NCBI GenBank assembly: GCA_021292105.1
Contig: CM037864.1
Span: 38,688,486-38,752,485 of the forward strand
Direction of reading: 5' to 3'
Source of the DNA: Anadara kagoshimensis
Lineage: Eukaryota > Mollusca > Bivalvia > Arcoida > Arcidae
Length of the DNA stretch: 64,000 nucleotides
Shown: positions 18,816 through 54,183 of the stretch, piece by piece
Position numbering within the stretch: the first letter of the stretch is position 1
Layout: every line of letters starts with the position of its first letter
Notes under the pieces: model-generated
Databases searched by the model: none
Told to the model about the DNA's origin: nothing
What the model saw: only the letters and a program-made list of their open reading frames with translations
Made by a program: the position numbers and the translations under genes

Positions 18816-19460
18816 ACACTGGCCAGTCAAGATTAATGCACAATTGCACTGGCCAGCCATAGCTATACTGTGTACGTACTGACCCGTCAAAGCTATACTG
18901 TGTAGCTACTGACCCGTCAAAGCTGTACTGTATACATACTGGCCGGTCAAAGCTAAACTGTAAACAAACTGACCCGTCAAAGCTGTACTGTCTAAATACT
19001 GGCCTGTCAAAGCTATACTGTATACATACTGGCCCGTCAAAGCTATACTGTATATATACTAGCCCGTCAAAGCTAAACTGTAAACATACTGACCCGTCAA
19101 AGCTATACTGTATACATACTTGCCGGTCAAAGCTAAACTGTAAACATACTGACCCGTCAAAGCTATACTGTATACATACTTGCCGGTCAAAGCTAAACTG
19201 TAAACATACTGACCCGTCAAAGGTATACTGTATACATACTGGCCGGTCAAAGCTAAACTGTAAACATACTGACCCGTCAAGGCTGTACTGTATACATAAT
19301 GGCTGGTCAAAGCTAAACTGTAAACATACTGACCCGTCAAGGCTGTACTGTATACATAATGGCTGGTCAAAGCTATACTGTAAACATACTGGTCTGTCAA
19401 AGCTGTACTGTTTACATACTGGCCAGTCAAAGCTATACTGCATCCAAGATGTATGCATGC
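18816..19460. repeat. 30-bp minisatellite with 60-bp higher-order unit
   Basis: About 21 units of ctgacccgtcaaagctatac then tgtaaacata, alternating with ctggccggtcaaagcta-type units, so the true repeat is 60 bases. As 30 is a multiple of three, frames stay open on the minus strand for over 200 codons (QYSFDGSVCL repeats) and in a second frame (YSIALTGQYV). I treat this as non-coding. Confidence 0.95.
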
Positions 19461-23489: not shown

Positions 23490-23618
23490 ATAATAATTGC
23501 CCTCTAGGTATGTGAACATCCAGAATTGTCACCCATCAGAAGGGTTTTCACCCTCGAGAGACCCCTATTGTCAGGTGACAATTCTGAATGTCCACATACC
23601 TAGAGGGCAATTATTGTA
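23490..23618. repeat. about 127-bp hairpin (foldback MITE)
   Basis: ataattgccctctaggtatg, then tgaacatccagaattgtcac, is mirrored by gtgacaattctgaatgtcca then catacctagagggcaattat. Arms of about 43 bases, loop about 40. Confidence 0.93.
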
Positions 23619-24261: not shown

Positions 24262-24477
24262 TACAGCAGGCCTGTCGAAAGTTTAACACTAAGCTAAAAA
24301 ATTAGTGCCGAATCGACGGCTCATCTCTGCTCCTCGTTAGCTCTATCTCGGCAGCGTTCCGGCAGATGGTACAATCTTCTCGGCATGTTTTTGCAACTAG
24401 CTATCAATATTTTGGTGGCTGAGCTTCGGCTCCTTTTCGTCAGCTTAGTGTTAAACTTTCGACAGGCCCGCACTGTA
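24262..24477. mobile_element. family A MITE, copy 3
   Basis: tacagcaggcctgtcgaaag on the left and tttcgacaggcccgcactgt then a on the right; about 216 bases. Confidence 0.9.
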
Positions 24478-24528
24478 TGTATTATACACTGATGAATAAA
24501 AATTGTTTAAACTAAACTGACTACTAGT

Positions 24529-25739
24529 AGTACTACTATTGTTCCAGGGAACTTAGATAGTCGCTTTATCTTAATATAAAATCAAGTATTGTAATATTAG
24601 TATTTATTTTGATATACCCGTAAATAAAATCATATCACCTAACAAACCTATGAGGTTTGCTGACTTAAACTTGAATTACAAAACAGGTACATAACGAAAC
24701 TTTTGTCGTTTTTAATAACAGAGAAAAACCAATGTGTTGTATATATACCTAAATGTACCTCAGATAGGTGTATATCACACCTGGTTGACCTGCATACTCA
24801 TTATTATCACACGGGTAAAACAAGGTTGTCTTTCAGGCGTGCGGTTCGGGTTTTACTCGTGCTCACGTATATGTATAATAATTACCCTTCATGTAATGCT
24901 CTAAATTTGCATACGAGGCACGGATAACGAGAGGGCATATGTGCAGTGTTTGAAAAACAACCAATTTTCGGTATGTAGAGCAAAACCAGAGGGCTGTAGA
25001 ACACCAATGTTTTGACATTTAACTGGGCTTTTATATTTTAGATTCAAAATGTATAACACTGAATATAAATCATTAAACATAAAAGCTTAATTGATAAAAA
25101 AGCAACTACCTAAGTTACCTGGAACAATAATAGTACTACTATTGTCCCAGGTAACTTAGGTAGTCCCTTTTTTGTCAATTAAGCTTTTATGTTTAATGAT
25201 TTATATCTAATGTTATATATACTTAATCTAAAATATAAAAGCCCATTTAAATGTGAAAAAATAAGTGTTCTACAACCCTCTGGTTTTGCTCTACATACCG
25301 AAAATGAGTTGCTTTTCAAACGTTGCACATATGCCCTCTTTTTATTCGTGCCTCATATGCAAATTCAGAGCAATGCATGAAGGGTAATTATTATACATAT
25401 ACATGAGTATGAATAAAACCTGAACCGCACACCCGAAAGACATCCTTGTTTTTACCCGTGTGATAATTAGTATGCAGGTCAACCAGGTGTGATTTACACC
25501 TATCTAAGGTACATTTAGGTATATATACAACATTGATTTTTCTTTGTTATGAAAAAAGACAAAAGTTTCGGTATATACCTGTTTTGTAATTCAAGTTCAA
25601 GTCAGCAAACCTCATAGTTTTAGTAGGTGATATGATTTTATTTACAAGATTATCAAAATGAGTACTAATATAACAATACTTGATTTTATATTAAAGATAA
25701 ATCGACTATCTAAGTTACCTGGAACAATTGTAGTATCAT
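24529..25739. mobile_element. 1.2-kb palindrome: two inverted copies of one TIR element
   Basis: Symmetry centre between 25134 and 25135 (tagtacta). The two arms of about 605 bases are roughly 88-90 percent alike by eye with small indels. Within each arm the two ends are also inverted repeats of each other: ctattgttccagg...acttagatagtcg at the outside and ctacctaagttacctggaac then aatag at the centre. So this is a head-to-head dimer of a 600-bp element rather than one simple foldback. No long coding frame in the arms. Confidence 0.93.
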
Positions 25740-35944: not shown

Positions 35945-36258
35945 GATAACATGTCACTGGTGGTAGAGAGTAAGGTTGTGGGTTCGATCCCCAGCCGGGT
36001 CTGACTAAAACTTGAAAGTGGGTAGTGACTGTTCTTTCGCCGAGCACTCAGTGTTACGAAATGAAAGTCACAGTTCTTAAAATAAACGAGGTCCTATTCA
36101 CGGTAGGCGTGGTACAATTAAGACACCTGCTGTATAATGTCATCAGCGCAACACACAGGCACAATTTCTTCACATTCGGTAAAGCTGGCGATGTCTCGAT
36201 AAAAGTGAAATATTTTTGACTGGGATGTTAAATACCTTTACTCGACTAAATTCAACTC
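35945..36258 (+). mobile_element. tRNA-derived SINE, head shortened
   Basis: Retains the B box (gggttcgatcccc), gactgttctttcgccgagca, the body and a degenerate ctcgacta..ttcaactc tail; the A box is lost. About 314 bases. Confidence 0.85.
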
Positions 36259-41820: not shown

Positions 41821-42170
41821 GTACCACTGCGTAGCTCAGTTGGTAGAGTGCTCGCTCCGTAAGTGGGAGGTCTTGGGTTCGAACCCTGACCGGGTCTGAC
41901 CCAAGACTTGAAAGTGGGCAGTGACTGTTCTTTCGCCAAGCACTCGGCATTAAGAAATGGAATGGTTCTTTCGGATGGGAACTTAAAATAAACCAGGTCC
42001 CGTGCCCCGGTATGGGTAGCACGATAAAGAACCCTGCTGTATAATGCCATAAGTGCAAGGTACAGGCAAAATTTCAACACCTTCGCCTATAGCTGGCGAC
42101 GTCTCGATATAAGTTAAAATATTCTTGACCGGGACGTTAAACACTATCACTCAACTCAACTCAACTCGAT
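41821..42170 (+). mobile_element. tRNA-derived SINE, longest copy
   Basis: About 350 bases: tagctcagttggtagagtgc (A box), gggttcgaaccc (B box), ggacgttaaacactatcact and a (CAACT)n-type tail. Longer than 41447-41734 because it keeps the aaataaaccaggtcccgtgc segment. No clear target duplication seen. Confidence 0.92.
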
Positions 42171-53856: not shown

Positions 53857-54183
53857 GTTGAGTTGAGTAATGGTGTTTAACGTCCTAGTCAAGAATATTT
53901 CACTTATATCGAGACATCTCCAGCTATAGGCGAAGGTGCATAAATTTTGCCTGTGCGTTGCGCTGATGATGGCATTATACAGCAAGGTTCTTTATCGTGC
54001 CAAACCCAGTGACACGGGACCTCGTTTATTTTAAGTTCCCGTCCGAAAGAACCGTGATGCCGAGTGCTTGGGGAAAAACAGTCAATACCCACCTTTAAGT
54101 CTTGGGTCAGACCCGGTAGGGACTCGAACCCACGACCTCTCACTTACGGAGCGAGCACTCTACCAACTGAGCTACCACAGTGG
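53857..54183 (-). mobile_element. tRNA-derived SINE, complete, with target duplication
   Basis: Minus strand carries A box, B box (gggttcgagtcc), body and tail (actcaactcaac). Flanked by tctcaaacactaga at 53843-53856 and 54184-54197, an exact 14-base duplication, so the copy is fairly young. Confidence 0.96.

Follow-up and report, generated by a model that had tools for sequence, protein, structure and literature searches.

How did a 1.2-kb palindrome, built of two arms that each look like a terminal inverted repeat (TIR) element, come to stand in the genome of the bivalve Anadara kagoshimensis? The palindrome lies in the window, i.e., the whole stretch of 64,000 nucleotides analysed here (assembly GCA_021292105.1, contig CM037864.1, hereafter C8, positions 38,688,486 to 38,752,485), and an earlier note made from the sequence had described it as one TIR element doubled head to head. 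The comparisons presented below point, with high probability, to a different origin, namely two TA-duplicating MITEs belonging to two subfamilies, which would have inserted independently at neighbouring sites and in opposite orientation. This origin is preferred because the arms fall into different subfamilies, the junction reads TA-GTAC-TA, the family occurs elsewhere as single copies and a second copy of the locus holds the subfamily-B element only.

The geometry of the locus agrees with the earlier description. A 1.2-kb inverted repeat was found where it had been reported, its self-complementarity blocks covering 24531-25735: 24817-25134 with 25135-25452 (318 nt, 88% complementary, 0 nt spacer), 24735-24804 with 25463-25532 (96%), 24571-24745 with 25520-25694 (89%) and 24531-24572 with 25694-25735 (93%). 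The centre, at 25134/25135, falls within TAGTACTA (25131-25138), a sequence identical to its reverse complement, and the arms do meet at this 8-base palindrome. With element ends placed by comparison with other genomic copies, the arms extend over 24536-25130 and 25139-25730 and are about 89% alike (88.8% identity by BLAST, 89.5% over aligned bases), a length and a likeness that would not be expected by chance. The palindrome is indeed a composite of two TIR elements, as had been proposed, each arm being a complete element (595 and 592 bp) with inverted ends of its own. Its parts, with the basis of their assignment, are the following:

24528-24535, no strand: outer left flank TAGTACTA, whose last bases are the TA of arm 1; the same 8 bases as at the junction (sequence)
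24536-25130, + strand: arm 1, complete 595-bp TIR element (MITE), subfamily A (ends from other copies; 26/26 diagnostic columns)
24537-24567, + strand: left terminal inverted repeat of arm 1 (31 bp, 90% to 25099-25129)
25099-25129, - strand: right terminal inverted repeat of arm 1, at the junction (pairs with 24537-24567)
25131-25138, no strand: junction TAGTACTA, read as arm-1 TA, GTAC and arm-2 TA (two-TA reading from the family rule)
25139-25730, - strand: arm 2, complete 592-bp TIR element of the same family, subfamily B, opposite orientation (23/26 diagnostic columns)
25139-25170, + strand: junction-side terminal inverted repeat of arm 2 (87.5% to arm-1 positions 1-32)
25699-25728, - strand: outer terminal inverted repeat of arm 2 (90% to arm-1 positions 564-593)
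25731-25732, no strand: outer right TA of arm 2, followed by G (sequence; ends from other copies)

No stop-to-stop frame of at least 120 aa was found in 24536-25730, and the two Rfam matches of the window both lie outside the dimer. The latter are tRNA matches at 41831-41890 (+) and 54115-54175 (-), in stretches that match the same sequences as those at 35973 and 51810 and that, judging from these matches, probably belong to a tRNA-derived SINE family. The window is rich in other repeats. Adjoining the dimer, 206 bases at 24266-24471 have 47-nt inverted ends (83%), and related pieces recur at many places of the window (e.g., 16925, 21348, 39907, 41375, 53159, 55413, and 63504). At 23500-23607, about 900 bases left of the dimer, stands a hairpin whose 50-nt arms (82%) enclose a loop of 8 nt; it may extend further, the searched stretch having started at 23500. 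A 55-bp satellite array (copies 93% matching) at 1-1087 continues past the left end of the window, and a 60-bp minisatellite at 18861-19440 has open frames on both strands, of 254 aa (+) and 229 aa (-).

The search for relatives of the arms covered 1.115 Gb in 36 contigs. With arm 1 as query, the 40 scored of 610 first-look candidates (a candidate count, and no verified copy number) gave long matches that were 91-96% identical and mostly near full length, the window's own arms returning at 100% and 89%. Copies are many, and 57 distinct places other than the window's dimer were examined; they remain of 70 loci (L002-L072, L009 excepted) once 13 repeated places are discounted, include the second copy of the locus (L010) and comprise a few fragments. 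In a set of 47 copies picked for near-full length, with ends taken from the BLAST matches, the median length was 593 bp (range 540-601). Copies mostly terminate in CTATTGTTCCAGG...CCTGGAACAATAG, and the inverted ends of the listed copies resemble those of arm 1; these terminal letters had no match in the literature searched, a statement confined to that scope.

Among 48 distinct flank pairs, which include those of the two arms and a few that are near-repeats of each other through local duplication, 44 have a flanking direct repeat of just 2 bases, TA. Two of the remaining pairs have one matching base, one has none and one, that of arm 1, has eight, the only such case. An 8-bp target duplication was considered as the rule of the family and rejected, TA alone being found in the 44 pairs. 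Elements have TA on both sides in 45 pairs and not in the other three, and the target context of those 45 is CTAG in 22, TTAG in nine, CTAA in seven, TTAA and CTAT in three each and TTAC in one, i.e., YTAR in 41. Short and uniform length, TIRs, the TA repeat and no frame of at least 120 aa together fit a MITE family with TA target duplication, and the TA, taken by itself, suggests a transposase probably of Tc1/mariner type. MITEs that duplicate TA are known as Stowaway-type and are mobilised by Tc1/mariner elements; the present family resembles them in being short and flanked by TA, and in having TIRs, many copies of similar length and no long frame.

Within the family the two arms take different places. 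The tree of the arms and the 47 copies, the bootstrap of which was not quite settled, contains a split (100/99) separating B, made of arm 2 and six copies recovered with arm-1 or junction queries, from A, made of arm 1 and 41 copies. At 26 diagnostic columns picked without the arms (three of them representing one gap), arm 1 agrees with A in all 26 and arm 2 with B in 23. The nearest of the 47 copies to arm 1 are L019 (96.1%, the best within subfamily A) and L011 (96.0%), and the nearest to arm 2 is L018 (95.8%), of subfamily B. The divergence between the arms is, by these sequence comparisons, mostly subfamily divergence and mainly older than the dimer, and is therefore unusable for dating it.

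At the junction, TA, GTAC, and TA stand between the elements, each of which has a TA of its own, 4 bases apart, so that the two do not share a junction end as had been suggested. All four element boundaries in the dimer are C-TA or TA-G. When both elements are removed by eye, with one TA each, the site reads ...GACTACTAGTAGTAC-TA-GTAC-TA-GTATCATCG..., a short repeat of TAGTAC, and at each of the two insertion points the context is CTAG, which the family uses more often than any other. The restored junction fits what would be expected from two independent insertions at neighbouring sites. No site free of both elements was found in the genome searched. The preferred course of events would start from a non-autonomous, TA-duplicating TIR family, probably mobilised by a Tc1/mariner-type transposase that would be encoded elsewhere and would insert the elements by cut and paste. 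A short TAGTAC-repeat stretch would have offered neighbouring preferred TA targets in CTAG context, where a subfamily-B and a subfamily-A element would each have inserted at a TA, 6 bases apart and in opposite orientation, the B insertion presumably preceding the A insertion.

The order of insertions can be viewed against the second copy of the locus, L010 (C8:38421339-38424445), about 290 kb upstream of the dimer. Its left flank matches the window at 2368 of 2436 aligned bases (97.2%, i.e., 2.8% divergence), and its right flank, much less alike, at 444 of 524 (84.7%). L010 carries the B element alone (554/584, 94.9% to arm 2), the subfamily-A element being absent. The flank preceding the element reads GACTACTAGTAGTACTT in L010 and, in the window, GACTACTAGTAGTACTA before arm 1 and TAGTACTA before arm 2. 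The likeness extends well beyond the locus: in the probed parts of both ranges, stretches of C8:38398031-38556000 match stretches of C8:38686000-38842645 in conserved order, with blocks longer than 2 kb 93-97% alike, shorter blocks down to 68% and some parts unmatched. Positions 1-54943 of the window recur largely in order at C8:38400068-38452839, and C8:38551269-38556000 corresponds to 38838000-38842645. From its sequence, this near-duplicate neighbourhood may be either a segmental duplication of large size or a second haplotype that the assembly left uncollapsed.

Whether arm 1 was gained in the window or lost from L010 concerns the history of the locus and not the origin of the dimer, as a loss would be compatible with two independent insertions. 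According to the loss alternative, which we hold as a tentative one, both elements predate the split of the locus copies, and recombination between direct repeats removed arm 1 from L010. The junction-side TIR of arm 2 repeats the left end of arm 1 in the same orientation and may serve as a deletion substrate, the likeness being extended by the identical TAGTACTA upstream of each. Removing arm 1 together with one TAGTACTA from the window yields the L010 flank except for one base and leaves no 6-base discrepancy. A gain meets with more difficulty here: L010 is shorter by six target bases, so that acquisition of arm 1 by a plain TA-duplicating insertion needs a longer original target, and adjacent insertion as such, which leaves these six bases unexplained from the L010 sequence, would need a longer target, a slippage step or the loss of the A element from L010. 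Set against the split of the locus copies (2.8% in the left flank), arm 1, with a terminal branch of 0.024, does not stand out as younger, and branch and flank divergence fail to separate gain from loss. Against the loss, the element end in L010 has no base that must derive from arm 1, and no third copy of the locus that could polarise the change was found, a right-flank query giving long matches at the window and L010 alone (40 scored of 905 candidates). In our judgement gain is somewhat favoured, because it requires no loss of a complete element.

Adjacent insertion of two elements has further to be weighed against the doubling of one, through replication fork switching, hairpin replication or aberrant transposition, to which the head-to-head geometry and the palindromic centre had given rise as a hypothesis. 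If one copy had been doubled, each arm should have the other as its closest relative; this is not so, as each has its best match in a different subfamily and both matches exceed the identity of the arms to each other, and doubling is on this account rejected. Forcing arm 1 and arm 2, a pair specified by the original finding before the tree was built, into one clade costs 102 log-likelihood units and is rejected under the model used (p-AU 4e-6). The subfamily difference runs along the length of the arms, and each arm has its separate TA. Near the junction the arms do have in common two non-consensus bases, at arm positions 574 and 582, as a doubling might leave; however, the base at 574 also occurs in 4/41 A copies (0/6 B) and that at 582 in 10/41 A and 1/6 B copies. 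Arm-to-arm gene conversion at the centre is, with the same two bases present in other copies, unsupported except, possibly, over a few bases. Doubling appears in sum very improbable, and among the origins listed in the earlier note the one retained is insertion at, or next to, a copy already present, whereas fork switching and aberrant transposition are set aside since the arms are not closest relatives.

No more credit can be given to an assembly artefact, i.e., a folded read or a mis-join, for which a large near-duplicate region, possibly an uncollapsed haplotype, would be a plausible setting. A fold would give arms of one subfamily, whereas the present ones are about 10% apart with consistent subfamily markers; moreover, the outer flanks on either side have their match in L010 and the window contains no N. 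The divergence of about 10% had been offered as proof of a real structure, and a fold is in fact unlikely, yet on the strength of the differing markers along the arms, the divergence itself being mostly at subfamily level.

The searches turned up no second dimer of this kind. A search for its junction motif at the original spacing, with 3 mismatches at most allowed, gave a single place in 1.115 Gb, the window (reversed control, 0), and of the 40 candidates scored out of 390 for a 200-base junction query, the window alone spanned it. The single copies that the earlier note proposed to look for were found at the 57 other places, so that its refuting case of a family made of dimers alone does not hold, with a second element copy at none of them within the flanks examined (mostly about 300-1500 bases per side, and 100 on one side of L068); L014, L020, and L037 are single copies interrupted by inserts. 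Head-to-head dimers with spacers of 0-30 were also sought: an exact 12+12-base pattern gave none (reversed control, 0) and an exact 8+8-base pattern matched 7 palindromic places, fewer than the 13 of the control, and none of the 7 reads CAATAG...CTATTG. Both patterns miss the window's own dimer by one changed base and, with the left 8-mer intact in 38 and the right in 42 of the 47 copies, the 8+8 pattern sees about 7/10 of dimers. There is no sign of a 1.2-kb unit moving in its own right, and a mobile foldback element is the least probable reading, since its long inverted arms and outer ends resembling insertion boundaries are outweighed by a junction found once in the genome, by single copies as the rule among the places examined and by the one-armed L010. 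Foldback elements such as Galileo and Tetris likewise have long inverted arms; unlike them, the long-armed unit described here was not found again in this genome, either by the junction search at its own spacing or at the 57 other places.

Two independent insertions this close are themselves in need of comment. For 610 copies, the expected number of family neighbours within 10 bp by chance ranges from 0.003 (uniform placement) to 0.016 (CTAG sites), and a chance pair is unlikely for a single family. The pair may have its reason in a true copy number above 610, in local hopping, in the CTAG cluster or in the large number of families that could have produced one, and the after-the-fact selection of one case among many repeat families would soften the argument.

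Comparable arrangements have been described in other systems. Jiang and Wessler reportedly found, in 2001, nested and multimeric MITEs, in which one MITE is inserted in or beside another; the present dimer is a single case in which the insertion lies beside, and not inside, the other element. Non-nested, end-to-end arrays of SaTar MULEs in microsatellites are reported in PMC5907723, with 8-11 bp duplications, arrays of mixed families and flanking repeats that may differ from the empty site. The likeness would consist in intact elements standing end to end in a short repeat target, here two elements in one TAGTAC stretch as a single case, and the difference lies in a TA duplication and a single family, 8 bp being found in 1/48 flank pairs (arm 1). 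The dimer would work like a two-element analogue of a SaTar array, but with its TA duplication and as a single dimer it is not a member of SaTar.

The dimer is most likely a small genomic accident of known kind. Its meaning lies in the fact that a striking long palindrome can arise from two ordinary insertions where geometry alone suggested self-doubling, the origin being indicated by the combination of subfamily markers with target duplications and with a second copy that is half filled. Long head-to-head repeats can be fragile sites, and the window and L010 are a natural case for tracking the gain or the loss of one arm. Should the loss from L010 be true, such dimers would be unstable and would revert to single copies. 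It is conceivable, though rather doubtful, that dimers of this family form at CTAG clusters and are soon resolved to single copies by recombination between same-facing ends; if so, the absence of other dimers would be explained, and the window and L010 would represent formation and resolution within one genome.
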